From Prescottella soli (GTDB taxonomy: Bacteria; Actinomycetota; Actinomycetes; Mycobacteriales; Mycobacteriaceae): a stretch of DNA of 64,000 bases. A program made the position numbers and the translations under genes. Under the pieces are notes generated by a model. The model made no database searches and had not been told where the DNA came from. It saw only the letters and a program-made list of their open reading frames with translations. Positions within the stretch are counted from its first letter, which is position 1; each line of letters starts with the position of its first letter. The DNA lies in NCBI RefSeq assembly GCF_040024445.1, contig NZ_CP157276.1, positions 3,906,001 to 3,970,000 of the forward strand, written 5' to 3'. Shown piece by piece: positions 8,273-55,226 of the stretch.

Positions 8273-8323
8273 AGCTGAAGGGACCGTTCATGCGCTGCGA
8301 GCGCATGAACGGTCCCTTCAGCT
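8273..8323. terminator. Perfect 24-bp hairpin between convergent genes (family A, copy 1)
   Basis: Two perfectly complementary 24-nt arms (8273-8296 and 8300-8323) with a 3-nt loop GCG lie between pyrE and the convergent secreted-protein gene. There is no U-tract on either strand. The arm starts AGCTGAAGGGACCGTTCAT; a sister copy lies at 55176-55226. Likely a bidirectional terminator. Confidence 0.75.
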
Positions 8324-8337
8324 GTTGGAGAGTCCGG

Positions 8338-8847
8338 TCAGGGGACGATGAAGAAGGCGGCGACCGCCCCGTATGACGTCTGCGGGCGCAGTTCGTTGAA
8401 CCAGGGGCTGACCGGGAGGACCGACATCTCCAGCCTCGCGACTCCGGAACCGGGATTGATCTCGGTACGGACGGTCTGGCCCTGACTTGCGAACAGGTCG
8501 ATCTCCTTGAGCTGTCCAGTGTAGATACCGAGGTTCCACGCGACGGTGACCTTCACCTTGCAGACCGGGTTCTGCGCCCAGCCCGGCCCGACGCCGTTCA
8601 TCCCGCGCGGCGTGAATGCGATGGTGGCGAGACCCGGACGTGCGGGATCGGTCTCGACGACGGTGTCGATCAGACCGTTGCAGAAGTCGTTCTGCCCGAG
8701 CACCGCCAGGGTGGGGCCGTTGAACGACGTGTGCAGGATCGGCGCGGGCGCCGGCGCGGCGCTGACGGTGCCGGCGACGCCGGTGACGAGCGCGGTTGCG
8801 ACGGCCGCGGCGCCGAATGCGCGCACGGCAAAGCTACGAAGCTTCAT
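8338..8847 (-). CDS. Secreted hypothetical protein
   Basis: A 169-residue protein with a clear Sec signal peptide: basic MKLRSFAVR, hydrophobic core AAAVATALVTGVAGTV and an Ala-x-Ala cleavage site (VSA-AP) near residue 30, then a Pro/Ala linker. The mature domain of about 135 residues has two cysteines (in NDFCNGL and NPVCKVK) that could form a disulfide, and a beta-rich pattern. I do not recognise the family; comparable small secreted proteins are common in Rhodococcus and Nocardia. It is transcribed alone, divergent from galT, and ends at the shared hairpin with pyrE. Confidence 0.8.
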   Translation of the reverse strand: MKLRSFAVRAFGAAAVATALVTGVAGTVSAAPAPAPILHTSFNGPTLAVLGQNDFCNGLIDTVVETDPARPGLATIAFTPRGMNGVGPGWAQNPVCKVKVTVAWNLGIYTGQLKEIDLFASQGQTVRTEINPGSGVARLEMSVLPVSPWFNELRPQTSYGAVAAFFIVP

Positions 8848-8988
8848 GTGAATCCCCCGTTGTTTCGATGTGTTTCATAACCCCCGGCCGTCGTGACTCC
8901 GGTGACGGAGCAACAGCCTCGAGCATGCTCACACAGAAGGTCCACCCGAACCAAACCGGGTGGTATCGGACGGATCCGGGTCGTCGCA

Positions 8989-8994
8989 TATCGT
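8989..8994 (+). promoter_or_regulatory. -10 box of leaderless galT promoter
   Basis: TATCGT lies 6 nt upstream of the ATG at 9001, with no ribosome-binding site between, consistent with a leaderless galTK transcript. Confidence 0.4.
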
Positions 8995-9000
8995 GTTCCG

Positions 9001-10116
9001 ATGCCGATCCGGAAGACGCGGACACACCTGTCCGACGGGCGCGAGTTGTTCTACTTCGACGCCACCGAGCCGTATGCGAGCGGGGCCACGACGCGCGAAC
9101 TGCACGACGGTCGCGAGTTGGCGCCGGTCGAGGCGGCGTCGACGATGCGCTACGACGTCCTGACGGGGGAGTGGGTGACGCTGGCGGCGCACCGGATGAA
9201 CCGCACCTTCCTGCCCGCGGCCGACGAGTGCCCGCTGTGCCCCACCCGGCCGGGACGCCCCGCGACCGAGATCCCGGCGGACGACTACGACGTCGCGGTG
9301 TTCGAGAACCGCTTCCCGTCGCTCGGGTCGGTGGACGCTGGAATCGCCGAACTCGTTGACGGTGAGGATCTTTGGCGCCAGCGCGCTGCCGACGGCCGGT
9401 GCGAGGTGGTGTGCTTCACCAGTGACCACGACCGCAGCTTCGCCCAGCTGTCGCCCGCGCGGGTGCGGACGGTGCTCGAGGCGCTGCGGGACCGGACGCG
9501 TGAGCTGTCGGCGCTGCCGTCCGTCGCCCAGGTGTTCTGCTTCGAGAACCGCGGCGAGGAGATCGGGGTGACGCTCTCGCACCCGCACGGCCAGATCTAC
9601 GCGTACCCGACGCTGCCGCCGCGGACCACCGCACTGCTGCGCCAGGCAGAGGAGCACCGCGGCCGCACCGGGCGCTCGCTCCTGCGTGACGTCCTCGACG
9701 CCGAGCGGCGCGCCGGCACCCGTGTGGTCGTCGAGGGCGCGCACTGGACGGCGTACGTGCCGGCGGCGGCCCGCTGGCCCGTCGAACTGCACGTGGCCCC
9801 GCACCGCGACGTCGCCGACCTCACCGAACTCCACGACGCCGAACTCGACGAGCTGTCCCACCTGTACCTGGACGTGCTGGGACGGCTGGACCGCTTCTTC
9901 GACGGCGTCGACCGGCTGCCGTACATCGCCGGCTGGCACCAGGCCCCCGTCGGGGACGGACGTGAACTGGGAAGGCTGTACCTGCAGGTGTTTTCGCTGA
10001 TGCGCTCGCCGCACCGGATGAAGTTCCTGGCGGGGTCCGAGTCGGGGATGGGGGCGTGGATCAGCGACACCACGCCCGAGCGGATCGCCGCCCGGTTCCG
10101 GGAGGTGGCGCCGTGA
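9001..10116 (+). CDS. galT: Galactose-1-phosphate uridylyltransferase
   Basis: Leloir pathway enzyme that swaps UMP between UDP-glucose and galactose 1-phosphate; cytoplasmic histidine-triad-like transferase of 371 residues. Seen: zinc-site pair CPLC near residue 77, the FENRFPSL segment, FENRGEEIGVTLSHPHGQIYAYP around 180-200 containing the His-Pro-His active site whose second His is uridylylated, and the C-terminal domain ending with the GWHQAPVGDG block. The next gene, galK, starts inside its stop codon (GTGA overlap), so the two form a translationally coupled operon. Confidence 0.93.
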   Translation: MPIRKTRTHLSDGRELFYFDATEPYASGATTRELHDGRELAPVEAASTMRYDVLTGEWVTLAAHRMNRTFLPAADECPLCPTRPGRPATEIPADDYDVAVFENRFPSLGSVDAGIAELVDGEDLWRQRAADGRCEVVCFTSDHDRSFAQLSPARVRTVLEALRDRTRELSALPSVAQVFCFENRGEEIGVTLSHPHGQIYAYPTLPPRTTALLRQAEEHRGRTGRSLLRDVLDAERRAGTRVVVEGAHWTAYVPAAARWPVELHVAPHRDVADLTELHDAELDELSHLYLDVLGRLDRFFDGVDRLPYIAGWHQAPVGDGRELGRLYLQVFSLMRSPHRMKFLAGSESGMGAWISDTTPERIAARFREVAP

Positions 10117-11291
10117 CCGCGAGGTGGTTCCGGCCCGTGCCCGACGCCGAACTCGCGGACACCGCGGCCGACGTCTTCCGCCGCGCGTTCGACGCCGACC
10201 CCGACGGCGTGTGGGCGGCGCCCGGGCGGGTCAACCTGATCGGCGAGCACGTCGACTACGCGGGCGGGTTGTGCCTGCCGATCGCGTTGCCGCACAACAC
10301 CGTCGTCGCCGCGGCACCCCGTACGGACGGGCGGATCCGGCTGCGGTCGACCGACGGGGACCCGTGGGACGGCCGCCTCGACGACATCGGTCCCGGTAGA
10401 CCGGCGGGCTGGGCGTCGTACCCGGCCGGGGTGATCTGGGCGCTGCGCGAGAACGGTGTGCTCGACGGCGGTTTCGGCGGCGTCGACGCGGCGTTCGTGT
10501 CGGCGGTGCCGATCGGTGCGGGGCTGTCGAGTTCGGCGGCGCTCGAATGTTCGTTGGCGCTCGCGCTCGCCCCGGACGCGGACCGGACGGCGCTGGCGGC
10601 GGCATGCGTGCGGGCCGAGAACGAGGTGGCGTTGGCCCCCACCGGCGGCATGGACCAGGCGGCCTCGCTGCGGGCGGCGGAAGGACATGCGCTGCTGCTG
10701 GATTCGGCGTCGGGTGCGGTGTCCCAGGTGCCGTTCGATCCGGACGGCTTGTCGCTGTTGGTGATCGACACCCGTGCCCCGCACCGGCTGGTGGACGGGC
10801 AGTACGCGAAACGCCGGTCCGCGGTGGAGCGGGCGGCCCGCCGGCTCGGCGTGGACTCGCTGCGCGAACTGGCTGACGGCGGACGCGACGGCATGGACGC
10901 GGTGCGGTCGCTGAAGGACGACGTTCTGCGCCGCCGCGCGTGGCACGTGATCAGCGAGATCGCCCGCGTCCGGCTGGCGGTGCGGGCGTTGGAGTCCGGC
11001 GACGTCGCCGAGTTCGGCCGGCTGCTGTACGCGTCGCACATGTCGCTCAGCCGCGACTTCGAGGTCTCCTGCCCGGAACTCGACAACGCCGTCGAGGCCA
11101 CGATGATCGCCGGTGCGCTGGGCGCCCGGATGACCGGCGGCGGCTTCGGCGGCTCCGCGATCGCGCTGGTCCCGTCGGGCCGGGTCGACGAGGCGATCGA
11201 GACCACCCGTCGGCAGGCGGCCGAACGCGGCCTGCCTGAACCTGCCTTCGCCGTCGTCGCGGCGTCGGCCCCGGCTCGCCAACTGCGCTGA
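10113..11291 (+). CDS. galK: Galactokinase
   Basis: Phosphorylates galactose to galactose 1-phosphate with ATP; GHMP kinase of 392 residues. Seen: N-terminal galactokinase signature GRVNLIGEHVDYAGG (residues about 32-46), the ATP-binding GHMP motif PIGAGLSSSAALE (about 130-142), TGGMDQAASL with the catalytic Asp, and motif 3 ARMTGGGFGGSAIAL near residue 340. GTG 10113 overlaps the galT stop by 4 nt and has GGGAGG just upstream. No galE or transporter is next to it, so the operon is a minimal galTK pair. Confidence 0.93.
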   Translation: MTARWFRPVPDAELADTAADVFRRAFDADPDGVWAAPGRVNLIGEHVDYAGGLCLPIALPHNTVVAAAPRTDGRIRLRSTDGDPWDGRLDDIGPGRPAGWASYPAGVIWALRENGVLDGGFGGVDAAFVSAVPIGAGLSSSAALECSLALALAPDADRTALAAACVRAENEVALAPTGGMDQAASLRAAEGHALLLDSASGAVSQVPFDPDGLSLLVIDTRAPHRLVDGQYAKRRSAVERAARRLGVDSLRELADGGRDGMDAVRSLKDDVLRRRAWHVISEIARVRLAVRALESGDVAEFGRLLYASHMSLSRDFEVSCPELDNAVEATMIAGALGARMTGGGFGGSAIALVPSGRVDEAIETTRRQAAERGLPEPAFAVVAASAPARQLR

Positions 11292-11439
11292 CTCTCGCGG
11301 GTCGGGTTCCCGCCGATCGGGACGACCGGAACCGTCCCGCGGCACGGCTGCGTCATGCTCGGGGCACGACGACGAACGGAGCGCACCGTGAGCCACGAGC
11401 AGGTGCGGATGTCCGAGTTGGGGTCCGATTCGGTTTCGG

Positions 11440-12537
11440 GTGCTCCGGATCATCTCGTACTTCGACGAACTCGGTGAGTCGGCGGCCAACGCGGACACCG
11501 TCGTCCGCTCGGCGGCCCTGCTCGCCGAGTGCCCGGTCGGCGCCCGGTGGTCCTCGGGCACCGTGATCCGATACGACGCGCTGGGGGATCCGCTCGACGA
11601 GGCCGGCCCTGCGGGCGCGGTCCGTCGGGAACCGGAGGTGTGGCTCGAGCGGGGCGGTGCCGAACGCCCACTCGACTCGGTGCTGCTGGACCGGCTCCGC
11701 CACACGCTCCGGGTGGCCGCCGCGCGGTCGGCACCGACGGACGAGTTGCGCTTGGGCGATCCCGCCCTGCTCGAGGTGGTGCTCTCGGACAAGGAGCGCC
11801 GCGAGGATCGGGTCCGCGCGGTGGGGCTGCTGGGGCTGGACCCGGCGCGGGAGATCCGGGTGCTGGCGGTGTCGTCAGCGTCGAGTGTGGCTGCGGTCGA
11901 ACTGATCTCGCGAACGTGTTCGGGGCGGCTGGTCCACTCGGTTGCGGTCGGCAGCCTGACCGCGGTGCTCCTGCAGGACGGGGTGGACAACCGCATGCTC
12001 GCCGACGACCTGCACGGTGCGATCGTGGCCGAACACCCGCGTCCGACGACTCCGAGCGGCGATCGCGGCCCGTGGGTGGGGATCGGCGAACGCCTGAGTG
12101 TGTATGCGGCGCCCACGTCGTGGAAGCAGGCGCGTCGGGCGCTGCGGTTCGCGTCGTCGACCGGCTACGGCCGACGCGCGGTCGCGTACGGGCGGCTCAG
12201 TTCGCTCGAACTGCTCGCCGAGCTGCCGCTCGAACGCCTCCTCCACGATCGGGACGTCGCGCGGATCAACGCGATCGCCGCATCGGTGACCGGGGCCCAG
12301 GAGGTGGCGACGCTCGAGGCGTTCTGCGTGTTCGGTTCGCTGCGACGAACCGCCGCCGAACTGCACGTCCACCACGGCACCGTCGCCGCCCGGCTCGCGC
12401 GACTCGAGTCCGAGATGGGCTGGGACCTGGAGGATTCGATGGACCGCTTCATGGCGACGCTGGTGCTGATGATCCGTCGGATGGCGTTGTCGTCGACGGA
12501 CCTGGCGGCGTCGGAGGTGTTCGGCGCCGGGTACTGA
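11440..12537 (+). CDS. PucR-type helix-turn-helix regulator
   Basis: A 365-residue regulator. The C-terminal 65 residues (EAFCVFGSLRRTAAELHVHHGTVAARLARLESEMG) are the PucR-family HTH, which normally sits at the C-terminus. Upstream are a sensor region (RIISYFDELGESAANADTVVRSAALLAECPVG) and a linker. GTG 11440 is the first start in frame but lacks a ribosome site. Twenty residues in another frame, from GTG 11388 (preceded by ACGGAG), could be the original N-terminus, so a frameshift near 11421-11437 is possible. It lies upstream of the SnoaL-like gene in the same direction and may control it. Confidence 0.7.
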   Translation: MLRIISYFDELGESAANADTVVRSAALLAECPVGARWSSGTVIRYDALGDPLDEAGPAGAVRREPEVWLERGGAERPLDSVLLDRLRHTLRVAAARSAPTDELRLGDPALLEVVLSDKERREDRVRAVGLLGLDPAREIRVLAVSSASSVAAVELISRTCSGRLVHSVAVGSLTAVLLQDGVDNRMLADDLHGAIVAEHPRPTTPSGDRGPWVGIGERLSVYAAPTSWKQARRALRFASSTGYGRRAVAYGRLSSLELLAELPLERLLHDRDVARINAIAASVTGAQEVATLEAFCVFGSLRRTAAELHVHHGTVAARLARLESEMGWDLEDSMDRFMATLVLMIRRMALSSTDLAASEVFGAGY

Positions 12538-12600
12538 GGATCCGACACGCGTCGGGGACCCGACCCGAATCGTCCGACGCTCGTCGGGTGACCGACAGCC

Positions 12601-12614
12601 GTGACCTGGGTCAC
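12601..12614. promoter_or_regulatory. GTGAC-N4-GTCAC palindrome upstream of the SnoaL-like gene
   Basis: GTGACCTGGGTCAC, 40 bp before the start at 12655, is an inverted repeat with 5-bp arms and could be an operator for the preceding PucR-type regulator or another factor. Confidence 0.35.
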
Positions 12615-12654
12615 TATTGGTGCGAAGTTCGTTTCACCGGAAAGGAATTCGCAC

Positions 12655-13209
12655 ATGGCCGTCATCGACCCCAGCCGCACGTGGGAACTGCTCGAGCAGC
12701 GCCTCGCCACCACCACCAACGCCCGCCACCGCGTTGTTCTCGGCGCGGTGATCGAGCACATGAAGGCGGAGGCCGCACCGGACCTCGACCGCCTCATGGC
12801 CACGCTCGGTCCCACCCCCGACTACCACTTCTGGAACGGCGGCCAGGACGTCGGCCCCAAGGGCACCGAGGTGGTGAAGACGTACTACATCGACTTCCTC
12901 GCGACGCGCACCAACATCCTCGAGTACGAGCTCGACCGCCTCGTCGTCGACGACCACTGCCTGGTCACCGAGGGTTTCCTGAAGCAGATCTACCCGGGCT
13001 CGTACGCCGCGCAGATCGGGATCCCCGTCGACGACGAGTCGGCCGACTACCTCGTCGCGTTCCGGCAGCTGATCCTGTGGCCGGTGGACGAGGACGGCCT
13101 GATCCAGGGTGAGGACTCGTACCACTCGGGGCCGTCGAGCGTCACCAAGCTCTCGTTCGACGAGCTGCCGCAGGAGTACATCGACCTGGTCCACACCCCC
13201 GCCAACTGA
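12655..13209 (+). CDS. SnoaL-like / NTF2-fold protein
   Basis: A 184-residue cytoplasmic protein with an N-terminal helix pair (RTWELLEQRLATTTNARHRVVLGAVIEHMKAEA) and a cone-shaped NTF2-like fold pattern: PTPDYHFWNGGQDVGPKGTEVVKTYYIDFL then LVTEGFLKQIYPG. Proteins of this kind include polyketide cyclases and small-molecule isomerases, but catalytic residues cannot be assigned and the substrate is unknown. ATG 12655 follows AAAGGA. The palindrome at 12601-12614 and the PucR gene upstream suggest inducible expression. It ends at a long shared hairpin facing the MFS gene. Confidence 0.75.
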   Translation: MAVIDPSRTWELLEQRLATTTNARHRVVLGAVIEHMKAEAAPDLDRLMATLGPTPDYHFWNGGQDVGPKGTEVVKTYYIDFLATRTNILEYELDRLVVDDHCLVTEGFLKQIYPGSYAAQIGIPVDDESADYLVAFRQLILWPVDEDGLIQGEDSYHSGPSSVTKLSFDELPQEYIDLVHTPAN

Positions 13210-13223
13210 CCCACCCCGGACAG

Positions 13224-13283
13224 CGCTTTGCGCACTTATCGGTGGTCGGACCTCGGGGAGATCACCGATAAGTGCGCAAAGCG
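13224..13283. terminator. 21-bp-arm hairpin between convergent genes (family B, copy 1)
   Basis: Perfectly complementary 21-nt arms at 13224-13244 and 13263-13283 (left arm starts CGCTTTGCGCACTTATC) with an 18-nt loop, between the convergent SnoaL-like and MFS genes. The core TTTGCGCACTT recurs at 25093-25153. No U-tract; probably a bidirectional terminator. Confidence 0.7.
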
Positions 13284-13297
13284 GGAGAGGGAGGGCG

Positions 13298-14545
13298 TCA
13301 GTCCGCGTCGCCGACGGTAACCGCGACGGCCTCGTCGACGCTGTGCGGCTCCGGATCGTGGTCGTCGACGTGTGCCAACACCTTCCGGCCCGTGGCGAGC
13401 ACGAGGATGCCGGCGACGGTGCACGCCGCGCCCACCCAGAACGGCAGGTGGACGTTGTGCTCGCCGAGCTTGCCCGCGACGTACGGGGCGGCGGCGCCGC
13501 CGACGAACCGGACGAAGCTGTATGCGGCCGACGCGGTCGATCGCTCGACCGGCGCCGAGATCATCACCGTCTCGGTGATGAGCGTGTTGTTGACGCCGAG
13601 GAACAGACCCGCGAGGACAACGCACACGACGAGCACGGGCTTGGACTCGGTGAACAGCGCCATCGCGCCCAGGTCGAGAGCGAACAGCGTCAGCGCCGCG
13701 ATCATCATCGGCAGCGTGCCGAAGGCGCGCTGCAGGCGCGGGGCGAGGAACACCGACGAGATCGCCAGCATCAGGCCCCAGCCGAAGAAGATGAAACCGA
13801 TCGAGTACGTGCCCATGTCGAGAGGGAACGGGGTGTACGCCAGCAGCGTGAAGAAGCCGTAGTTGTACAGCAGCGCGGTGATCGCGACGGTCAGCAGGCC
13901 GCGGTGGCGCAGCGCCTGGAACGGGGCGGCGAGCGATGTGCGGTGCTGCGGCTTGGGAGCCTTCGGCAGCATCACGGTGATGAGGATGAACGCGAGGGCC
14001 ATGAGCGTCGCGACGCCGAAGAACGGTGCGCGCCAGCTGATGTTGCCCAGGACTCCGCCGACGAGCGGGCCCACGGCGATGCCGATGCCGAGCGCCGCCT
14101 CGTACAGGATGATCGCGCGGGCCACACCGCCGCTGGCGGCGCCGACGATCGCGGCGAGCGCGGTCGCGATGAACAGTGCGTTGCCCAGACCCCAGCCGGC
14201 GCGGAAGCCGACGATCTGGTCGATCGTGCTCGACGCGCCGGCGGCGGCCGCGAACACCACGATGATCGCCAGGCCCCAGAGCAGGGTCTTTTTCGCGCCG
14301 ATGCGGCTCGAGATCATGCCGGTGAAGAGCATCGCGACGCCCGTGACCAGCATGTAGCTGGTGAACAGCAGCGACACCTGGGACGGGCTGGCGTCGAGCT
14401 GTTCGGCGATCGGCTTGAGGATCGGGTCCACGAGGCCGATGCCCATGAACGCGATGATGCTGGCGAAGGCGACGGCCCACACCGCTTTCGGTTGCTGCAG
14501 GATGCTGGGTTTCGTGCTGGTGGCTGCGGCGGTCGTCGTGCTCAC
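13298..14545 (-). CDS. MFS transporter (12-helix drug/metabolite exporter)
   Basis: A 415-residue permease of the major facilitator superfamily with 12 predicted membrane helices. Seen: GIGLVDPILKPIAEQL in helix 1, motif A-like SSRIGAKKTLLWG after helix 2, and GIGIAVGPLVGGVLG (antiporter motif C) in helix 5, which marks it as an exporter. The C-terminal tail is acidic. GTG 14545 follows AAGGAGG. The MarR gene ends 28 nt upstream in the same direction, so the pair forms a regulator-exporter operon under the operator at 15033-15057. Substrate unknown. Confidence 0.88.
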   Translation of the reverse strand: MSTTTAAATSTKPSILQQPKAVWAVAFASIIAFMGIGLVDPILKPIAEQLDASPSQVSLLFTSYMLVTGVAMLFTGMISSRIGAKKTLLWGLAIIVVFAAAAGASSTIDQIVGFRAGWGLGNALFIATALAAIVGAASGGVARAIILYEAALGIGIAVGPLVGGVLGNISWRAPFFGVATLMALAFILITVMLPKAPKPQHRTSLAAPFQALRHRGLLTVAITALLYNYGFFTLLAYTPFPLDMGTYSIGFIFFGWGLMLAISSVFLAPRLQRAFGTLPMMIAALTLFALDLGAMALFTESKPVLVVCVVLAGLFLGVNNTLITETVMISAPVERSTASAAYSFVRFVGGAAAPYVAGKLGEHNVHLPFWVGAACTVAGILVLATGRKVLAHVDDHDPEPHSVDEAVAVTVGDAD

Positions 14546-14573
14546 GTATCCCTCCTTGATGATGTCGTCGTGG

Positions 14574-15032: not shown

Positions 15033-15057
15033 TTACATAAGCTAACTATCTATGTAA
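15033..15057. promoter_or_regulatory. MarR operator: TTACATA-N11-TATGTAA
   Basis: A perfect inverted repeat with 7-bp arms at 15033-15039 and 15051-15057, 13 bp before the MarR start and inside the likely promoter. It is a markedly AT-rich island in GC-rich surroundings, as expected for a MarR autoregulatory operator. Confidence 0.6.
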
Positions 15058-15182
15058 ACCCCTGCGTCCTGCACTCTTGTCGATCCGGGCGGTCGGTCCG
15101 GGCGCGCCCGAGCACGCGAAACGCGGGGTGCGGCGGGCTGTGGCGGTACCGTCGTGCCGAATCGGACACGAGGGAGTTGGGC

Positions 15183-17174: not shown

Positions 17175-18104
17175 ATGACGGATCTCAAGCCCCGGAAGAT
17201 GGACTTCGGGTTCGACGACGGGGACGTCCCGTTCCTGTGGAACCCCGACAACCCGGCCTGGTCGAGCATGTCGAACGCGGTGTCGTTCCTGGCCATCGGC
17301 TTCGAGAAGATGATCGTGAAGCTGATCCTGCAGGCCAAGCCCCTCATCACCGACCCCGAGGTCGCGGAGGAGGCGGTCGCGTTCATGCGGCAGGAGGGCC
17401 ACCACTCGACCGCGCACCGCCAGCACGTGAACGGGCTGATCCGGAGCTACCCGGGCCTGCAGAACACGCTCGACGCGGTGATCGGCGAGTTCGACCTGCT
17501 GACCGAGCGCACCTCGATCGACTACCGACTCGCGTACACCGCCGACCTCGAGGCCACGTTCACGCCGGTGTTCAAGCTCATGCTCGACAACGAGGCGACG
17601 CTGTTCCGCCCGGGCGACGACCGTGTCGCGTCGCTGTTCCTCTGGCACTTCGTCGAGGAGGTCGAGCACCGCAGCTCGGCGCTGGTCATCTACAACTCGG
17701 TCGTCGGCAACGAGCTGTACCGGATGCGGATGGCGGCGTCGGTCTTCGCGCACGTGATGAAGTCGATCCGGATCGCGTGCGCCGGCTTCAACCAGCACGT
17801 TCCGCTGTCCGAGCGGAAGGTCGACTCGCTGTCGATGTTCGCCCGGCACCGGGCCAAGCAGAGGGTGCTCACCGCCTTCGCTCCATACCTGACCAAGGGG
17901 CCGATGCCGCGTGCGTTCGACGGTCTCCCGATCGGCGAGCAGCTCACCGCGCTGCGCGGCGCCGTCCGCAGCCAGATGCCCGGGCACAACCCGACCCACG
18001 AGAAGCTGCCGGTCCTCGCCGACGCGTGGTTCACGCGCTATGACGCCGGCTACGACTGCACCCGCTGGTACACGGCCGAGCCGGTGTCGTCGGGGGTGAA
18101 CTGA
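17175..18104 (+). CDS. Putative metal-dependent hydrolase (PF10118-like)
   Basis: A 309-residue protein resembling the bacterial metal-dependent hydrolase family PF10118. Helical bundle with repeated metal-ligand-like motifs: FMRQEGHHSTAHRQHVN near residue 80, DNEATLFRPGDDR, and WHFVEEVEHRSSALVIYN around 160. The E..H and EE.EH.. motifs recall diiron/ferritin-like proteins, and some members are annotated as such. ATG 17175 follows GAGG at ideal spacing; an in-frame ATG at 17106 lies inside the operator and is less likely. It overlaps the next gene by 1 nt (TGATG), so the two are translationally coupled. Substrate unknown. Confidence 0.75.
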   Translation: MTDLKPRKMDFGFDDGDVPFLWNPDNPAWSSMSNAVSFLAIGFEKMIVKLILQAKPLITDPEVAEEAVAFMRQEGHHSTAHRQHVNGLIRSYPGLQNTLDAVIGEFDLLTERTSIDYRLAYTADLEATFTPVFKLMLDNEATLFRPGDDRVASLFLWHFVEEVEHRSSALVIYNSVVGNELYRMRMAASVFAHVMKSIRIACAGFNQHVPLSERKVDSLSMFARHRAKQRVLTAFAPYLTKGPMPRAFDGLPIGEQLTALRGAVRSQMPGHNPTHEKLPVLADAWFTRYDAGYDCTRWYTAEPVSSGVN

Positions 18105-19261
18105 TGTCGGATCACTGTTCGCCCACGTTCGAGGTCCTGGCCACCAGGCTCGGCTTCTCGTGCGACGAGGCCGGGGGACTGTTGGAGGTCCGCAGTCCGT
18201 TCGCGTTGGAGAACTTGACGCTGCCGGTCCTCGAGGTCACGATCGTGCTGGGCGCGGTGCTCGCGCTCGTCTACGCGATTGTGCGGTTGCGCCGCCACGG
18301 CGACCCCACCAACCTCGTTCTGTGGTTCGGCGCCACCGCATTCCTGTTCGTGATCGAACCGCCGATCTACTTCCCGGCCGCGTTCGGCACCGAGGACTAC
18401 CTGGGCACGATGTTCGCGCACAACGTGTTCACCGTGGATTTCCTGTGGGGTCGCCTCCCGCTGTACATCGTCGCGATCTATCCGTTGATGGCGACGCTCG
18501 CGTTCGAGATCGTTCGGATGCTCGGCGTGTTCCGGCGCTACGGGGTGTTTCTCGGTGCGGTGTGTGTCGGCTTCGTCCACCACGCGTTCTACGAGATCTT
18601 CGACCAGCTCGGGCCGCAGCTGAGGTGGTGGGAGTGGACGCTCGACAACAAGGTCAACCAGCCGTTCTTCGATTCGGTGCCGCTGCCGAGCGTCGTGGTG
18701 TTCGCCGCGCTGTGGCCGATGTCGCTGGCGCTGTGCGTCCAGTTCTTCGTCGGCCGCTACGTCGATCGGGGCCGGCACTTCTCCGGGCTCGAGTTGGTCT
18801 GGCGCACAGTCGTTATCGGTCTCACCGCGTCCGTCGGCGTGTTCGTCCTGCCGCTCCCGGCGACGGTCTTCGGGATGGGCAGCGACACGGCCCGAGGAGT
18901 CCTCTATGCGGCCGAACTCGTCGCCGTCACGGTCGTCGCGATTCCGCTCCTGCTCAAGCAGTGGTCGCGGTTGCGCGCGGGAACGTCCGACGTCCCCGCC
19001 TACTCGAACGACTTCGTCCGGATCTATGGCGTCGTGTACATCGCGGTGATGGCCGTGCTGTGGGCGACGGCGTTGCCGGACTTCTTCGGCGCCGTCGACG
19101 GCGTGACCGACAACGGTGACCCGATCGGGAACCTGTGGTACACGCTCGCGTGCTTCGCGGTCGCGATCCTGTCGGTGGCCGCGACATTCACCGTGCCGCG
19201 GGCGGACGCCGTCGAGGTGCCGCCGAACGCCGCCGGAAAGGTCACCCGGGGCCTAGCCTGA
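18104..19261 (+). CDS. Polytopic membrane protein of unknown function
   Basis: A 385-residue protein with about 8-9 membrane helices. Conserved-looking polar clusters include FGATAFLFVIEPPIYFP, MFAHNVFTVDFLWGRLPLY and VGFVHHAFYEIFDQLGPQLRWWEW, with buried His, Glu and Asp that could be an active site or cofactor site. I do not recognise the family. The start codon overlaps the stop of the hydrolase gene, and an SDR gene follows 5 bp later, suggesting the three work on one lipid-like or terpenoid substrate, which is inference from operon structure only. Confidence 0.75.
   Translation: MSDHCSPTFEVLATRLGFSCDEAGGLLEVRSPFALENLTLPVLEVTIVLGAVLALVYAIVRLRRHGDPTNLVLWFGATAFLFVIEPPIYFPAAFGTEDYLGTMFAHNVFTVDFLWGRLPLYIVAIYPLMATLAFEIVRMLGVFRRYGVFLGAVCVGFVHHAFYEIFDQLGPQLRWWEWTLDNKVNQPFFDSVPLPSVVVFAALWPMSLALCVQFFVGRYVDRGRHFSGLELVWRTVVIGLTASVGVFVLPLPATVFGMGSDTARGVLYAAELVAVTVVAIPLLLKQWSRLRAGTSDVPAYSNDFVRIYGVVYIAVMAVLWATALPDFFGAVDGVTDNGDPIGNLWYTLACFAVAILSVAATFTVPRADAVEVPPNAAGKVTRGLA
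19254..19259 (+). promoter_or_regulatory. -10 box of internal leaderless SDR promoter
   Basis: TAGCCT, ending on the first base of the preceding gene's stop codon, is followed by exactly 7 nt and the ATG at 19267. It could give a separate leaderless SDR message within the operon. Confidence 0.45.
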
Positions 19262-24023: not shown

Positions 24024-25058
24024 GTGCCTATCGCAACTCCCGAGGTCTACGCCGAGATGCTCGGTCGGGCCAAGGAGCACTCCTTCGCCTTCCCCGCCAT
24101 CAACTGCACGTCGTCGGAGACGATCAACGCGGCCATCAAGGGCTTCGCGGACGCCGGCAGCGACGGCATCATCCAGTTCTCGACCGGCGGCGCCGAGTTC
24201 GGTTCGGGCCTGGGTGTCAAGGACATGGTGACCGGTGCGGTCGCGCTCGCCGAGTTCGCGCACGTCGTCGCAGCCAAGTACGACGTCACGATCGCGCTGC
24301 ACACCGACCACTGCCCCAAGGACAAGCTGGACACCTTCGTCCGCCCGCTGCTCGCGATCTCGCAGGAGCGCGTGAACGCCGGCCGGAACCCGCTGTTCCA
24401 GTCGCACATGTGGGACGGCTCGGCCGTGCCGATCGACGAGAACCTCGCGATCGCGCAGGAGCTGCTGAAGCTGTCGAAGGCCGCGAACATCATCCTCGAG
24501 GTCGAGATCGGCGTCGTCGGCGGTGAAGAGGACGGCGTCGAGGCCGAGATCAACGACAAGCTGTACACGTCGCGCGAGGACTTCGAGAAGACCGTCGACG
24601 CGCTCGGTGTCGGCGAGAACGGCAAGTACCTGCTGGCCGCGACGTTCGGCAACGTCCACGGCGTCTACAAGCCGGGCAACGTCGTCCTCAAGCCGGAGGT
24701 GCTCAAGGAGGGCCAGGAGGCCGCGACCGCCAAGCTCGGCCTGGCCGCCGGCTCCCAGCCGTTCGACTTCGTCTTCCACGGCGGCTCGGGCTCGCTGAAG
24801 TCGGAGATCGAGGACTCGCTGCGCTACGGCGTCGTGAAGATGAACGTCGACACCGACACCCAGTACGCGTTCTCGCGTCCGATCGTCGGCCACATGTTCT
24901 CCAACTACGACGGCGTCCTCAAGGTCGACGGCGAGGTCGGCAACAAGAAGGTCTACGACCCGCGCAGCTACCTCAAGAAGGCCGAGGCCGGCATGACCGC
25001 TCGCGTCATCGAGGCCTGCAACGACCTCAAGTCCGCGGGCCGCTCGGTCTCCGCTTAG
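24024..25058 (+). CDS. fba: Fructose-bisphosphate aldolase, class II
   Basis: Zinc-dependent aldolase of glycolysis and gluconeogenesis, cleaving fructose 1,6-bisphosphate to DHAP and glyceraldehyde 3-phosphate; 344 residues, cytoplasmic. Seen: INCTSSETINAAIKGFADAGS near the N-terminus, the zinc motif ALHTDHCPKDK (about residues 91-101), EVEIGVVGGEEDG (about 162-174), ATFGNVHGVYKPG with a zinc His, HGGSGSLKSEIEDSLRYGVVKMNVDTDTQ in three adjoining blocks. GTG 24024 follows GGAGGAC. It is the M. tuberculosis Rv0363c counterpart and is followed by a long hairpin. Confidence 0.95.
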   Translation: MPIATPEVYAEMLGRAKEHSFAFPAINCTSSETINAAIKGFADAGSDGIIQFSTGGAEFGSGLGVKDMVTGAVALAEFAHVVAAKYDVTIALHTDHCPKDKLDTFVRPLLAISQERVNAGRNPLFQSHMWDGSAVPIDENLAIAQELLKLSKAANIILEVEIGVVGGEEDGVEAEINDKLYTSREDFEKTVDALGVGENGKYLLAATFGNVHGVYKPGNVVLKPEVLKEGQEAATAKLGLAAGSQPFDFVFHGGSGSLKSEIEDSLRYGVVKMNVDTDTQYAFSRPIVGHMFSNYDGVLKVDGEVGNKKVYDPRSYLKKAEAGMTARVIEACNDLKSAGRSVSA

Positions 25059-25092: not shown

Positions 25093-25153
25093 CACGTTTG
25101 CGCACTTGCCGCTCTTCTCCCCGTCAGGAGACAGCGGTGAGTGCGCAAACGTG
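25093..25153. terminator. Long hairpin between convergent genes (family B, copy 2)
   Basis: Arms 25093-25113 and 25133-25153 pair over 21 positions with two mismatches, and the 19-nt loop can form an inner TCTCC/GGAGA stem. It lies between fba and the convergent Rv0361-like gene. The core GTTTGCGCACTT matches the hairpin at 13224-13283. Confidence 0.7.
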
Positions 25154-25162: not shown

Positions 25163-25699
25163 CTAGTCGGGGTTGCAGACCTTCCAGTCGCCGCCGATGT
25201 GTGACAGGTCGAACGTGCGCGGCGAGACGTCCGAGGGGTTCGCCCGCGTGTGCGCGGTGACTTGGGCGATCGCCGAATCCCCGTTGATCTGGACCGAATC
25301 GATGCTCGTGACGACGGGAATGCTGCCGCCCGCCACAGCGTCACGGTGGACGTCGGCGAACTCGACGGGCGGGATGTCGCGGTAGAAGTCGGACAGGGTG
25401 CCGCACGTCGACGACTGCAGCGTGGTCAGGTCGCCCGACTCGAGAGCCGTCACGAAGGTGTCGACGGCGTCGCGGACCTGCGATTCGGTCGCGTTCGCCG
25501 CCCCGCCGCGGGCGATCACGAACCCGGCGACACCGAGGGCCGCGAGGACTCCGACCACCGCGACGGTCGACGCGATGACCCAGCCGCGCCTGCCGCCGCG
25601 GCGGCCACCCGACTCGGGGGCCGGTGCGGCCGGTGCGATGCGCTGCGGGCCGGCGCCGGTCGGCGTAGGACTGGGCTGGATGTCGTCGGTGTCGGGCAC
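25163..25699 (-). CDS. Membrane-anchored Rv0361-like protein
   Basis: A 178-residue protein: a Pro-rich cytoplasmic N-terminus, one membrane helix (about residues 42-65, WVIASTVAVVGVLAALGVAGFVIARGG), then an extracytoplasmic NTF2/DUF4878-like domain (VRDAVDTFVTALESGDLTTLQSSTCGTLSDFYRDIP ending WKVCNPD) with a conserved Cys pair. A paralogue lies at 56921-57343. The position next to the DUF3151 gene matches Rv0361/Rv0360c. Function unknown; the domain resembles small secreted lipoprotein-like modules. Confidence 0.75.
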   Translation of the reverse strand: MPDTDDIQPSPTPTGAGPQRIAPAAPAPESGGRRGGRRGWVIASTVAVVGVLAALGVAGFVIARGGAANATESQVRDAVDTFVTALESGDLTTLQSSTCGTLSDFYRDIPPVEFADVHRDAVAGGSIPVVTSIDSVQINGDSAIAQVTAHTRANPSDVSPRTFDLSHIGGDWKVCNPD

Positions 25700-34858: not shown

Positions 34859-36424
<1,566 letters not shown>

Positions 36425-36440: not shown

Positions 36441-36487
36441 CCGAATGTCACATGCGTCCAGTCCGACTGGGCGCATGTGACATTCGG
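36441..36487. terminator. 22-bp hairpin between convergent genes (family C, copy 1)
   Basis: Arms 36441-36462 and 36466-36487 pair fully (one G-T) around the loop CCG. The outer 16 bp CCGAATGTCACATGCG is identical to the copy at 39634-39680. It separates purA from the convergent TROVE gene. Confidence 0.75.
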
Positions 36488-36525
36488 CGTTTCGGGGGCG
36501 GAGCCAGTGGGAGAAGCGGCTTCGG

Positions 36526-38037
36526 TCAGTACCTGCCGGTCCACGGCCAGGCGGCACGACGGCCGGACTCGACGATCGGCAGCATGGCGAAGCAGGCGTC
36601 GGTCGGGTCCCCGAACGTGAATCGGTTCGGTCCGTCGCCGGTACGGCCCACCGGATCGAAGGTGTGCACCGGAATATGCTCGGGGACAACGTCACCGGGA
36701 CTGTGCGGCGCCGCATCGGTGGCGTGCGCGTCGGTCAGTATCACGACGCGGTCGTGGCCGTCGAAGAACTCCGCGGCCGCCGACGCGGTGTTCGTGCCGA
36801 CGCTGTTGAGGCATCCGGTCGGGTTCCAGCGGCCGACCGCACCCAGCAGGGGTTCGCCCGGGCGCATCGGGAACAGCGCCCCACCGGCCGTGCCGGTCGA
36901 GACGACGTCGGCCCGTTCGGCGCGCCGCGCGAGCGCAAGACCGAAGACCGTGGCCGTCGACCCTGCCGTGTCGACGAGCACCAGGGTTCGCCCGGGCAGT
37001 CGCGGGACACGGTCGAGCGACAGCTCGAGTGCCCGCTCGAGGGCTGCGGACCAACGCGGGGACCCCACCGACTCGAGGGCGGAGAGGAAGCGCAGCGGCA
37101 GCTGGCGTGATCGGGCCACCTGCTCCGGATCCTGCAGTCGGTCGGCCACTTTCGCTGCCACGTCATCCGACACCCCGGTGTCGTCGAAGTTGCGGAGGTT
37201 GTTCAGCAGCCCCATGTATCCCATCCGGGGGATGATGGCTTCCCACGTCTGCCGGTCCATCGGCGCCTGCAGCCAGTCCGCCACAGACTCCCACGTCATC
37301 GCCGCCGGCCCGAGGCGCGCGACGCCGTCGGGAGCGGTGAGCAGGAGCGGGCGCTCGGACAGCGGAACCGCCATCAGGTCGGCGCGCGCTCGTACCGACT
37401 CGAGACTCGGGGGAATCGGCCTGTCCCGCCTGTGCCGACGGTCCAGCGCGTGCTCGAACAGGTCACCCTGATACTCGGACCGCGGTGAGGGGTGCACCAG
37501 GTCGAGGACGTCACCGAACCGATAGCCGAGGGCGGGGGTGTCGTACTTGAGCAGCGCCCGCTCGGTGTACAGCCTGGCGACCGCGTCCGCGACGCCGCGC
37601 TTGATCGGTTGCGCGAGCTTGCGCCCGTACGTGGCGCGCCAGTAGGCGAGCATCTCGCCCGGTTCGTCCGCGCGTTGCAGGACGCTGCCGACGACCTGAC
37701 GGCTGTACCCGTGTTCGCCCGCGTCGAGCCGTGCACGGGTGAACTCGGCGGCTCCGACGAGGGCCGCCCAGCGCATGTTCGCGTCGGTCCGCAGCCAGCG
37801 CAGGAATCCAGCGGCCCACTCGGGGTCGCTGACGGCGAGCTGTCGGACGAGCCGGCGATACCGATCGTCGCGAGCCCCACCGTGAACCAGGCTCGTGACG
37901 GCCAGCAGGAACAGTTCGGTCCTGGGATCGCGTGGAGAGCCGGATCCGTCCTCGCGGGTGGGACCACCGGGTGCCATCTCGGTCCGCAACCGACCGGTCC
38001 CCACTGGTCGCTCGGTCGTGGCGTCGAACCTGCTCAT
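36526..38037 (-). CDS. TROVE-domain protein (bacterial Ro60/Rsr homologue)
   Basis: A 503-residue homologue of Ro60, the ring-shaped RNA-binding protein that holds Y RNAs and misfolded RNAs; in bacteria it works with exonucleases in rRNA processing and stress. Residues about 30-330 are the HEAT-repeat TROVE domain (DPRTELFLLAVTSLVHGG, EWAAGFLRWLRTDANMRWAAL, and MTWESVADWL then AIIPRMGYMGLLNNLRNFDD). The C-terminal third is vWA-like: TLVLVDTAGSTATVF sits where the metal-site DxSxS should be, with Ala replacing the first Ser, and VVILTDAHATD follows. ATG 38037 follows GAGGGGGACGAG. The long leader upstream is a candidate place for its RNA partner. Confidence 0.88.
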   Translation of the reverse strand: MSRFDATTERPVGTGRLRTEMAPGGPTREDGSGSPRDPRTELFLLAVTSLVHGGARDDRYRRLVRQLAVSDPEWAAGFLRWLRTDANMRWAALVGAAEFTRARLDAGEHGYSRQVVGSVLQRADEPGEMLAYWRATYGRKLAQPIKRGVADAVARLYTERALLKYDTPALGYRFGDVLDLVHPSPRSEYQGDLFEHALDRRHRRDRPIPPSLESVRARADLMAVPLSERPLLLTAPDGVARLGPAAMTWESVADWLQAPMDRQTWEAIIPRMGYMGLLNNLRNFDDTGVSDDVAAKVADRLQDPEQVARSRQLPLRFLSALESVGSPRWSAALERALELSLDRVPRLPGRTLVLVDTAGSTATVFGLALARRAERADVVSTGTAGGALFPMRPGEPLLGAVGRWNPTGCLNSVGTNTASAAAEFFDGHDRVVILTDAHATDAAPHSPGDVVPEHIPVHTFDPVGRTGDGPNRFTFGDPTDACFAMLPIVESGRRAAWPWTGRY

Positions 38038-39017: not shown

Positions 39018-39629
39018 ATGGCCATTCTGTACGCCGCGCAGCTGTCGCCCACCAAGCCCGAACTGATCGCGCACTGGCTGCCGCGAGCGTCCTATTGCGC
39101 GGGCGCACCGGCGGTTGTGGACCGGGTCGGCGCGTACCGCTTCGACGATCCCGCCGGCGAGGTCGGCATCGAGACGCATCTGGTGCGCGACGCCGCGGGA
39201 GAGATCTGCCAGGTGCCGCTGACGTACCGTTCGGCTCCGCTCGACGCGGCAACGCTCGTGGGCGAGATGGAGCATTCGGTACTCGGGCGCCGCTACGTCT
39301 ACGACGCGACCACCGACCCCGTCTACGTCCAGCAGCTACTGGCGACCATCTACGGCGGCGGCCGTGAGGTCGAGCAGTTCGTGCACGTCGACGGCGGCGA
39401 GCCGCAGCGGGTCGAGAACACCGCGGGCGTTCGAGGGAGTGGAGTGACCGGCGTCGAGGCGCCGATCGTCACCGATGTTCGCGTGGTCGTGGACGGCACC
39501 GACACCGTGATCGCCGGCGGCGGGGTGACCGTCGTGGTGCACCACCGTCCGCTCGGGGTCGAACCGAGCGGGCCGGTCTTGCGCGGCGAATGGGATGGAG
39601 GCCGAGGCGTCCTCGCCTCACTGCGCTGA
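39018..39629 (+). CDS. Maltokinase-N-cap-like (CG0192-like) protein
   Basis: A 203-residue cytoplasmic protein starting MAILYAAQLSPTKPELIAHWL. The block SYCAGAPAVVDRVGAYRFDDPAGEVGIETHLVRD (in pieces), then VPLTYRSAPLDAA and LGRRYVYDATTDPVYVQQLL resemble the N-terminal cap domain of maltokinase and the corynebacterial CG0192 group. The kinase domain itself is absent, so this is a stand-alone cap-like protein whose partner or role is unknown. It is convergent with the mscR operon and ends at a family C hairpin. Confidence 0.75.
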   Translation: MAILYAAQLSPTKPELIAHWLPRASYCAGAPAVVDRVGAYRFDDPAGEVGIETHLVRDAAGEICQVPLTYRSAPLDAATLVGEMEHSVLGRRYVYDATTDPVYVQQLLATIYGGGREVEQFVHVDGGEPQRVENTAGVRGSGVTGVEAPIVTDVRVVVDGTDTVIAGGGVTVVVHHRPLGVEPSGPVLRGEWDGGRGVLASLR

Positions 39630-39633: not shown

Positions 39634-39680
39634 CCGAATGTCACATGCGTTCAGTCCAACTGGACGCATGTGACATTCGG
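39634..39680. terminator. 22-bp hairpin between convergent genes (family C, copy 2)
   Basis: Arms 39634-39655 and 39659-39680 pair fully (one G-T) around CCA. About 44 of 47 bases match the copy at 36441-36487, 3.2 kb away, on the same orientation. Confidence 0.75.
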
Positions 39681-47623: not shown

Positions 47624-47659
47624 CGACGGGCCGGACACCGAGTGGTGTCCGGCCCGTCG
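47624..47659. terminator. 16-bp hairpin between convergent genes
   Basis: Perfect 16-bp arms CGACGGGCCGGACACC (47624-47639) and its complement (47644-47659) around a GAGT loop, between the MocR gene and the convergent racemase gene. Its sequence is unlike the three repeated hairpin families. Confidence 0.7.
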
Positions 47660-49277: not shown

Positions 49278-49281
49278 CCCG

Positions 49282-49998: not shown

Positions 49999-50039
49999 AG
50001 AATGTCTGACAGATGTCGTGTCCGGGCGATGACGTAGCT

Positions 50040-50594: not shown

Positions 50595-50620
50595 CCGTCC
50601 AATGCTAACGGATCCAGACC

Positions 50621-50675: not shown

Positions 50676-50683
50676 GTTGGAGT

Positions 50684-50983: not shown

Positions 50984-51015
50984 GTCCAGGACACGGAAGA
51001 GGGGAGTTCGGTGCC

Positions 51016-52119: not shown

Positions 52120-52232
52120 TCGGCGATCCGCCTCGACGTGACACAACAGCCGACACGGCGGGAAACCCCATTGCGCTGGCAGTATGGGCTATCGGCCGAC
52201 ACGCGCGCTACCAACGTCCTGGCCGGGTATAT

Positions 52233-52658: not shown

Positions 52659-52686
52659 CGCGCAAGTATGCATATCGGCGACCGCA

Positions 52687-52692
52687 TATAGT
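52687..52692 (+). promoter_or_regulatory. purT: -10 box of leaderless purT promoter
   Basis: TATAGT, then 7 nt (CCGACCC), then ATG 52700; no ribosome-binding site. One of the clearest leaderless promoters in the window. Confidence 0.6.
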
Positions 52693-52699
52693 CCGACCC

Positions 52700-53914: not shown

Positions 53915-53924
53915 GCAGCCCAGC

Positions 53925-54407
53925 GTGAGTACCGGGGTCGAGGTTCTGCTCGGCCTGGTGATGCTCGTCGGGCTGATCGGCGTCGTGGTGCCGATCCTGC
54001 CCGGCACCCTGCTGATCGCCGGGGCGCTGCTGGTGTGGGCGATCCTCGACGCCACCGCGGCCGGCTGGGCGGTGTTCGCGGTGGCCGCGCTGCTGCTCGT
54101 GGCGTCGGGCGTCGTCAAGTACACGTGGCCGGGGCGCCGGATACGCGACGCCGGCGTCCCCAACCGGTCGGTGATGTTCGGCGGCCTGGTGGGGATCGTC
54201 GGGTTCTTCGTCGTCCCCGTCGTCGGACTGCTGCTCGGCTTCCTGCTCGGCACGTACGTCGCCGAGGCCGCCCGGCACCGAACCCACCGCGACGCGTGGG
54301 TCTCGACCGTGCACGCCACCAAGGCCGTGGGGCTGTCGATCCTCGTCGAACTGTTCGGGGCACTGCTCGCCGTCGGGCTGTGGCTGGGCGCGGTGCTCGC
54401 GCTCTGA
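53925..54407 (+). CDS. DUF456 membrane protein
   Basis: A 160-residue DUF456 protein with about five helices: VEVLLGLVMLVGLIGVVVPILPGTLLIAGALLVWAI (PGTLL is typical), TWPGRRIRDAGVPNRSVMFGG, GLLLGFLLGTYVAEAARHRTHRDAW and a final helix AVGLSILVELFGALLAVG. Glycine-zipper-like helices suggest oligomerisation. Function unknown. Starts GTG 53925, 10 bp after purT in the same direction, so it is co-transcribed. Its stop is 1 bp from the stop of the convergent amidohydrolase. Confidence 0.82.
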   Translation: MSTGVEVLLGLVMLVGLIGVVVPILPGTLLIAGALLVWAILDATAAGWAVFAVAALLLVASGVVKYTWPGRRIRDAGVPNRSVMFGGLVGIVGFFVVPVVGLLLGFLLGTYVAEAARHRTHRDAWVSTVHATKAVGLSILVELFGALLAVGLWLGAVLAL

Positions 54408-54408
54408 C

Positions 54409-55164
54409 TCAGGCGGGGCAGCGATACCACTCACGCGCGTTGCCGCCGAGGACCGCCTCGAGGTCGTCACCGACCGCGTCGGCGATGACGTCGACGTCCG
54501 CGGCCTCGAACGCGCGACGGGCGCGGGTCCCGGGCAGGTCGGTGCCGAACATGAGCGCCTTCGGGTTGACGGCGTGGATCTGGCGCACGACGTCGCCGAC
54601 GTCGCCGATCGACGTGCGTCCGAAGCCGGTGGCCTTCACCTTGGCGCCGCGGTCCACGAGGTTGAGCAGGTAGCGCAGCCCGCGCGTCGACATCCCGAGG
54701 TGGTCGATGCTCACGGCCGGCAGCTTCGCGAACACCGGTTCGAGCGACAGCAGCAGCGTCGCGTCCACGTAGAACTCGGCGTGCCAGCCCACCAGTTCGT
54801 GGGCGCGCAACGCCTGCTTCGTCAGGATCCGCACGTCGGTGGCGCTGCGCCGCAGATTGAACCGCATCCCCCGCACCCCGGCCCGGTCGAGCTCGAGGAT
54901 GTCGTCGTCGGTGGCGTCGGGGTCGAGATGGGTGACGCCCACCCAGCCCTCGCCCAGTTCGCGCAGCGCGGCCAGCAGTTGCGGCCGGCCGAGGGTGCCC
55001 TGGTACGACGCGGTGACGACGGCGCCACCGTCCACGCCGAACCCCGCCATGCGGGCGCGGTAGTCGGCGATCGTGAACGGATCGGGCAGGTAGCCGTTGT
55101 TCTCCACCAGGGGGAACCGCGGGTCGATGATGTGCACGTGCGCGTCAAACACGTGTCTCATCAT
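54409..55164 (-). CDS. Amidohydrolase-related TIM-barrel protein
   Basis: A 251-residue amidohydrolase-2-type protein. Metal motif FDAHVHIIDPRFP at the N-terminus (HxH), then GVDGGAVVTASYQGT, WVGVTHLDPDATDDDILELDRAGVRGMRFNLRR in blocks, HAEFYVD, SIDHLGMSTRG and LMFGTDLPGTRARR (last Asp of the site). Members decarboxylate or hydrolyse aromatic or lactone compounds (e.g. 2-pyrone-4,6-dicarboxylate lactonase). Substrate unknown. Two adjacent ATGs; 55164 is used. Upstream lies the family A hairpin that insulates it from fprA. Confidence 0.82.
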   Translation of the reverse strand: MMRHVFDAHVHIIDPRFPLVENNGYLPDPFTIADYRARMAGFGVDGGAVVTASYQGTLGRPQLLAALRELGEGWVGVTHLDPDATDDDILELDRAGVRGMRFNLRRSATDVRILTKQALRAHELVGWHAEFYVDATLLLSLEPVFAKLPAVSIDHLGMSTRGLRYLLNLVDRGAKVKATGFGRTSIGDVGDVVRQIHAVNPKALMFGTDLPGTRARRAFEAADVDVIADAVGDDLEAVLGGNAREWYRCPA

Positions 55165-55175
55165 GCCCCGCGAAA

Positions 55176-55226
55176 AGCTGAAGGGTCCCTTCATACGCTG
55201 TCGGCGTACGAAGGGACCCTTCAGCT
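55176..55226. terminator. 23-bp hairpin between fprA and amidohydrolase genes (family A, copy 2)
   Basis: Arms 55176-55198 and 55204-55226 pair with one mismatch around TGTCG. Twenty of 23 arm bases match the copy at 8273; the substitutions at arm positions 11 and 14 are matched in the opposite arm, keeping base pairs. Confidence 0.7.

Follow-up and report, generated by a model that had tools for sequence, protein, structure and literature searches.

Mycobacterial intrinsic terminators, as the accessible sections of PMC12288462 describe them (following Unniraman 2001 and Ahmad 2020), are mainly I-shaped, consisting of a strong hairpin without a poly-U tail that lies within 50 bp of the stop codon. 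We analyzed a 64-kb stretch of the Prescottella soli genome (hereafter the window; positions 3906001-3970000 of a 5,475,811-base single contig) in which six long hairpins at gene ends share all of these properties, and an actinobacterial host, and fall into three sequence families, A, B, and C. Unlike the terminators in those sections, the families share fixed sequences, often lie between convergent genes, and can replace one another at a fixed gap. Judging from sequence comparison, we consider these hairpins to be probably two-way, I-shaped gene-end terminators that lack a U-tract and belong to families that spread and replace one another.

The part of PMC12288462 available also presents termination by U-tract-less hairpins in high-GC actinobacteria as disputed, with work on both sides. 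Streptomyces terminators mapped by Term-seq carry 3 to 4 U in 10 nucleotides (nt) and have the longest hairpins (PMC12207403, in its accessible part), and the corresponding part of PMC5381666 reports compensated change and stronger constraint for two-way terminators of Bacillus cereus.

Described repeat families form a second set of precedents. Repetitive extragenic palindromic (REP) sequences and their paired form, REPINs, occur in the available text of PMC3116915 as extragenic inverted doublets around a variable middle, with some direct arrays and a copy number that varies between relatives. All of this holds for the families described here, which differ in having no associated REP-associated tyrosine transposase (RAYT), in strongly favoring gene ends and avoiding divergent gaps, and in the absence of a GTAG tag from the copies, which were read by eye with no formal search. 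The CGTC-tagged REPs of PMC3733652 are likewise short palindromic repeats, with no dedicated transposase found in the part of that paper available, but no CGTC tag was seen in our families; its text contains no mention of Rhodococcus, Actinobacteria, Mycobacterium, or Nocardia. In the DNA uptake sequences and uptake signal sequences (DUS/USS) covered in the accessible part of PMC1852404, a repeated word in inverted pairs also forms gene-end hairpins, but our families comprise three separate words in tens of copies rather than one in about a thousand. Judged by title, the literature that we searched contains no description of such families in Rhodococcus or Prescottella, and a search with the core letters returned no bacterial-repeat paper.

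Hairpin families of the window

A search of the window at a stem score of at least 12 returned seven hairpins, namely the six family members and a unique one at 47624-47659, against 1, 1, and 0 in three Markov control sequences, none of which scored above 12. Chance cannot account for the six hairpins, whose RNA folding z-scores are -10.3 to -11.7. All six lie where the initial annotation had placed them, and it was correct that none has a U-tract and that five separate convergent genes, the sixth (55176) lying within a tandem pair. Gene calls here and below come from a codon model that we wrote ourselves rather than from a standard gene finder. The family sites of the window are as follows.

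8273-8323: family A hairpin with a 24-bp perfect stem, in the convergent gap between a phosphoribosyltransferase-domain gene (7674-8249, plus strand; pyrE-like by inference) and 8338-8847 (minus strand)
13224-13283: family B hairpin, in the convergent gap between 12601-13209 (plus strand) and an MFS transporter gene (13298-14545, minus strand)
15063-15128 (approximate bounds): family B site in decay, between divergent genes
25093-25153: family B hairpin, 3' of the fructose-bisphosphate aldolase gene (24024-25058, plus strand), convergent with 25163-25699 (minus strand)
36441-36487: family C hairpin, 3' of the adenylosuccinate synthetase gene purA (34946-36424, plus strand), convergent with a TROVE-domain gene (36526-38037, minus strand)
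39634-39680: family C hairpin, between a gene with a maltokinase N-cap domain (39018-39629, plus strand) and a metallo-beta-lactamase-fold gene (from 39694, minus strand)
55176-55226: family A hairpin, between the tandem minus-strand genes 55240-56577 and 54409-55164

Dispersal and position relative to genes

Exact cores recur across the P. soli genome 35 times for A, 35 for B, and 31 for C, and the search for C at up to one mismatch gave 28; reversed-pattern controls for the A, B, and C searches gave 2, 0, and 0. The C core first proposed, CCGAATGTCACATGCG, is too long, and the part kept in this genome is CCGAATGTCACA. Grouping yielded 59 loci (22 A, 21 B, and 16 C), exclusive of an A-like match inside a gene (2154998), a lone B box (457646), and a further locus given by the B model (4963965). 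With covariance models, the number of strand matches in this genome is 52 for A, 39 for B, and 32 for C, or roughly 26, 20, and 16 loci, palindromes mostly scoring on both strands. The copies are inverted pairs of conserved words around a variable middle, dispersed between genes as in REPINs. Family B, originally seen only as hairpins, does form inverted pairs (spaced 41-43 bp), but some of its boxes are instead repeated in direct orientation every 40-42 bp. Local stems at B boxes, set against shuffles, score no higher in inverted pairs (3.01 versus 2.89; n = 78, P = 0.09), 4.82 versus 3.85 in direct arrays (n = 11, P = 0.03), and 2.0 versus 1.03 at single boxes (n = 6, P = 0.01), and all three effects are small or weak.

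The 59 loci comprise 27 in convergent gaps, 30 in tandem gaps, 1 in a divergent gap, and 1 inside a called gene. In a survey of 364 kb of sampled P. soli DNA, 52 of 288 gaps were convergent and 47 divergent, so that the loci are in excess in the former (P = 9e-7) and deficient in the latter (P = 3e-4). The enrichment at convergent sites that the initial annotation had asked about is therefore present, and the cores are not placed at random in coding DNA, the single locus inside a gene being counted after one A-like coding match was dropped. Hairpins lie a median of 15 bp from the stop codon and within 40 bp in 141 of 156 measurements, both sides of convergent copies being counted, in a set of 112 copies from all fetched regions (55 from P. 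soli and 57 from relatives) whose filter missed copies with more than three core mismatches. As in I-shaped terminators, then, a stable hairpin without a U-tail lies within about 50 bp of the stop codon, and the first 8 nt downstream of 44 tandem copies near a stop codon contain 0 to 4 T.

Hairpins at gene ends are not confined to the families. Among 33 hairpins with a stem score of at least 13 in the surveyed 364 kb, 19 fall in convergent gaps, which make up 2% of that DNA; without the six family hairpins the figure is 14 of 27, which indicates that gene-end hairpins are general in this genome. The remaining hairpins are mostly unique sequences by eye, and the families are thus the repeated subset of a general class of gene-end hairpins.

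Some features downstream of the hairpins are recorded here as observations in their own right. The 20 nt past tandem family hairpins are G-rich on the transcript strand (GC skew of 0.25 for A, 0.41 for B, and 0.29 for C), and those past 32 non-family hairpins are T-rich instead (TA skew of 0.27, GC skew of 0.03). The word CGTTTCGGGG recurs 3' of C hairpins, and window positions 36488-36510 are an example of a G-rich downstream stretch. In L086, hairpins at 18048-18093 and 19166-19221, about 1.1 kb apart, have CCTGTGCGCC(T/C)TTT in common and may represent a fourth family.

Pairing and constraint on the arms

Covariation was counted for families A and C. Arm changes matched in the opposite arm had been noticed between the two window copies of A, and this compensation is borne out, although the count of two becomes three fully compensated pair differences (columns 11/41, 14/38, and 20/32) and one one-sided difference (18/34). 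Across family A, 17 compensated cells stand against 9.4 in shuffles (4 of 500 as high), and the covariation score exceeds all 500.

Mispairs carry a signal of the transcribed strand. Tandem copies at most 40 bp from the upstream stop (n = 44; 25 from P. soli and 19 from relatives) contain 37 G.U and 12 A.C mispairs on the transcript, where gap composition predicts 48% G.U and ordinary tandem gaps are without skew (P = 1.5e-4, too small a value given that some copies are orthologous and not independent). The P. soli copies alone have 27 G.U to 7 A.C (P = 4e-4). With no limit on distance, the count is 39 G.U to 18 A.C.

The outer arms of families A and C evolve slowly. At orthologous sites, 4 of 364 outer-arm bases changed in A and 3 of 312 in C, against 26 of 280 and 32 of 260 inner-arm bases, respectively, in a set that leaned toward conserved cores. 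A missed P. agglutinans ortholog of site 55176, added later, brings A to 8 of 390 outer against 28 of 300 inner bases (P = 2e-5), and the inner/outer rate ratio is 4.5 for A and 12.8 for C. With 1 to 2% of outer-arm bases changed versus 9 to 12% of inner-arm bases at the same sites, pairing alone does not explain the cores: either a further constraint acts on the outer arms or exchange between copies rewrites them. Together with the direct B arrays, the slow outer arms would favor some form of sequence-specific recognition.

Conservation and turnover among relatives

A protein encoded in the window matched five named records, four of Prescottella and one labeled Rhodococcus hoagii, the best being P. 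defluvii SampleD3_15 at 91% identity. Two records named P. defluvii (L091 and L093) have 91% and 73% identity to one window protein, and at least one of the names looks wrong.

Across 121 genomes of the family Mycobacteriaceae, enrichment of the exact cores of A and B is seen for six of the eight genomes of this genus, P. soli included, and not for its two smaller genomes (G105 and G118), where the A model gives 14 and 19 weaker strand matches. Strand matches to the B model number 16 in SampleD3_15, 39 in P. soli, 62 in P. agglutinans, and 78 in P. equi.

The window sites of families A and C are largely kept in place. Family A is present at site 8273 in four of four mapped relatives and at site 55176 in four of four, the P. 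agglutinans copy of the latter bearing two compensated outer pairs. A C hairpin follows purA (site 36441) in five of five relatives. At site 39634, SampleD3_15 and P. agglutinans likewise have C in the gap. In P. equi and P. defluvii Ca11 it is an A hairpin that stands at the end of the lactamase-fold gene, and in AcN21-7, where the next gene differs, that gene has a C hairpin beside it. Paired B boxes occur at site 25093 in five of five mapped relatives, one box being mismatched in SampleD3_15, for which the hairpin finder reported none. Site 13224 carries B in three relatives and an A hairpin in SampleD3_15 (Ca11 not mapped), and a second hairpin, of family A, stands beside C in Ca11.

When P. 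soli sites across the genome were mapped in SampleD3_15, A was kept at 8 of 8 and C at 6 of 6, proportions flattered by regions partly picked from known hairpin matches. For B, whose regions, except the last two, were picked from P. soli positions alone, the pair was kept at 4 of 13 sites; the other nine hold one A hairpin, one lone decayed box, and, in seven cases, no box pair. Differences run in the reverse direction as well. The B site at 15063-15128 is decayed in both P. soli and SampleD3_15 and has paired boxes in four other relatives, and the P. soli DNA corresponding to two further B sites of P. equi lacks a box. Family B is clearly less stable than A and C, as the 4 of 13 sites kept and these reverse cases indicate. 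Individual cases include 4745485, where the SampleD3_15 gap may by eye hold a box remnant; 4013959, where B overlaps the end of an upstream gene that continues in SampleD3_15; and a C copy at 3979300 that is absent in P. agglutinans. The inner part differs less between orthologous copies than between copies within the genome (0.157 versus 0.229 for A and 0.139 versus 0.249 for C), which argues that A and C copies were inherited in place.

Family C beyond the genus

The suggestion that the families are specific to this genus stands for A and B by exact core, relatives outside the genus not having been sought with a model, and fails for C. Of 397 genomes sampled across the order, 2 contain the exact paired C core, P. 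soli (the sole member of its genus in that draw) and one of another genus. In the 121 genomes of the family, the C model has matches with an E value of 0.001 or better in 30 genomes, which represent 9 of 31 genera. Strong matches (best E of 3e-9 or better) occur in 20 genomes of 5 genera, 12 of these genomes lying outside this genus, and a single genome has as many as 44 strand matches. For the remaining 10 genomes the best E values are 1e-7 to 7e-4, and 4 genera have weak matches alone. Scanning the same 364 kb of P. soli DNA, in which 31 other hairpins have a stem score of at least 13, the model gave nothing above 12.7 bits but the two C copies, so being a strong hairpin is not enough to score as C.

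A cross-genus alignment of 29 C hairpins (9 from this genus and 20 from others), which is restricted to matches of 47 bases and omits ten of the 16 P. soli copies, has 19 of 22 pairs changed on both sides and 89 compensated cells against 19.6 in shuffles (0 of 500 as high), although the model that picked these matches rewards pairing and the covariation leans toward structure accordingly. One-sided changes are few (12 cells). Removal of the six weakest leaves 23 sequences with 17 of 22 pairs and 57 cells against 11.4 (0 of 500 as high). A set of 29 such sites, two of them near-duplicates and two from this genus, was classed with the Prescottella codon model: 16 lie between convergent and 9 between tandem genes, 2 fall inside called genes, 1 is in a divergent gap, and 1 is at an edge. 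The covariation statistics that the initial annotation had called for are positive for A in compensated cells and score, and for C across genera.

Neighboring features

Other features of the window touch its hairpins or lie near them. The unique hairpin at 47624-47659 has a 16-bp stem in a convergent gap, and the stem is identical in SampleD3_15 and P. agglutinans. The divergent gap that holds the decayed B site also contains, next to that site at 15033-15057, what looks like an operator, with TTACATA and TATGTAA as inverted arms on either side of 11 bases; this stretch is near-identical across six genomes, the final right-arm bases differing in P. equi and AcN21-7. The TROVE-domain (Ro60-type) gene after purA has matching DNA in SampleD3_15 and P. 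agglutinans and is not at the post-purA spot in P. equi, Ca11, or AcN21-7; C hairpins flank the TROVE block on both sides. Rfam gave no match in the window at the gathering score. Below threshold it gave 12 matches across six C loci, all to microRNA families, and four in window positions 8200-13400 (E of 0.33 to 0.96).

Evidence for and against termination

Bidirectional termination had been the first of the functions suggested for these hairpins. Position, pairing, covariation, the in-place conservation of A and C, and the G.U bias by transcript strand support it, as does the near absence of copies from divergent gaps; termination itself we infer. A near-perfect palindrome would yield a strong RNA hairpin from either strand and could serve both genes of a convergent pair, with RNA polymerase stopping at the hairpin, perhaps helped by NusG-type pausing. 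Within each of the three sequence families, something besides pairing would hold the outer arms, and copies would spread, be lost, and be swapped for one another at gene ends. Sequence families, slow outer arms, family replacement at a fixed gap, and direct B arrays all go beyond what the accessible parts of PMC12288462, PMC12207403, and PMC5381666 cover.

A range of results weighs against this reading. The count of A pairs changed on both sides, six, was equaled or exceeded in 59 of 500 shuffles, and C in the P. soli genome alone covaries weakly, with 3 pairs and with 8 cells where shuffles average 5.2 and 45 of 500 do as well. The G.U test is weakened by its non-independent copies, and 32 non-family hairpins have 7 G.U to 2 A.C (P = 0.18). 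If the hairpins work in both directions, wobbles that suit one strand should be scarcer between convergent genes. The 53 convergent copies have 64 wobble-type mispairs and the 50 tandem copies 57, so the prediction is not supported for wobbles, although mispairs of all kinds are fewer in the convergent copies (84 against 106). Plain terminators need no fixed sequence and are a misfit for conserved outer arms, and neither the direct B arrays nor the occurrence of B in divergent gaps (5 of 112 copies) fits them well. The absence of most B pairs from SampleD3_15 counts on the same side. Mycobacterial RNA polymerase, moreover, reportedly needs a U-tract (Czyz 2014, a reference of PMC12288462).

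Alternative explanations

A serious but lesser possibility is that the hairpins are mobile palindromes, akin to REPINs or miniature inverted-repeat transposable elements (MITEs), that survive best at gene ends, their conserved arms being the recognition ends of a mobilizing enzyme while the middle drifts. The many copies, with paired conserved boxes, a variable middle, and some direct arrays as in the REPs of PMC3116915 (in its available part), accord with this, as do the one clear family switch, at site 13224, the extra A beside C in Ca11, the strongly differing B counts among relatives, and the B pairs kept at so few sites in SampleD3_15. The MITE-like dispersal first proposed is upheld to that extent, but no transposase could be tied to it. 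The Y1 transposase domain (PF01797) is present in two of the eight genomes of the genus and absent from five of the six hairpin-rich ones, for which a RAYT link was rejected. P. soli has a single Y1 (IS200-like) match (G000:C1:5204341-5204703), and within 1.5 kb on either side of that gene there is no paired box, only an isolated box that resembles A at two mismatches. The few empty-site alignments, inspected by eye, gave no sign of a target duplication, and the possible box remnant at one empty site would mean deletion. The closeness of orthologous A and C inner parts, relative to within-genome copies, also opposes mobility. REPINs would explain why the copies form groups and turn over, B most of all, but leave the absent RAYT and the gene-end bias unaccounted for.

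Outside sources of mobile copies were not apparent. Plasmids gave no match to the B or A queries and phages none to the C query. Viral contigs contained 15 stretches with the C pattern, 16 with the B pattern, and none with A; a partner arm within 60 bp at up to three mismatches accompanies 4 of these 31, L152 holding a lone weak partner. In L155, L162, and L167 (GC 0.42-0.50), a span of about 500 bases contains the B word TTTTGCGCACTT two or three times, in each case forming one arm of a short hairpin that is tighter and differently laid out. We take this recurrence, without proof, as chance sharing of a word. These viral hairpins seem to precede ribosome-binding sites.

That the hairpins are DNA-binding palindromes, whose boxes a dimeric protein binds at gene ends, for example as a transcription road-block or a nucleoid site, we regard as unlikely. 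The slow outer arms and the 40-43-bp spacing that B boxes hold in both direct and inverted order speak for the protein-binding role first suggested, but C copies of other genera alter the box yet keep its pairing, and the G.U bias follows transcription, neither of which is expected of a pure DNA site; no candidate protein emerged, although none was looked for. A DNA uptake-type signal doubling as a terminator, as in Neisseria and Pasteurellaceae, shares the inverted pairs of a short repeated word that form gene-end hairpins but is very improbable and was rejected, the 35 A, 35 B, and 31 C exact cores being too few against the generally at least 1,000 copies given in the accessible part of PMC1852404.

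Implications

A broader proposal, which we consider doubtful, is that the gene-end hairpins of Mycobacteriaceae belong to old families that disperse, and that a sequence-specific factor may recognize their outer arms, as RNA or DNA, such that a factor-dependent two-way terminator, copied between gene ends, replaces the missing U-tract. The families provide dozens of natural, replicated, covarying cases in which constraint on the outer arms can be separated from constraint on pairing, and they offer a concrete way to look for such a recognition factor. Because family C occurs in several genera, it can be tested outside this genus as well.

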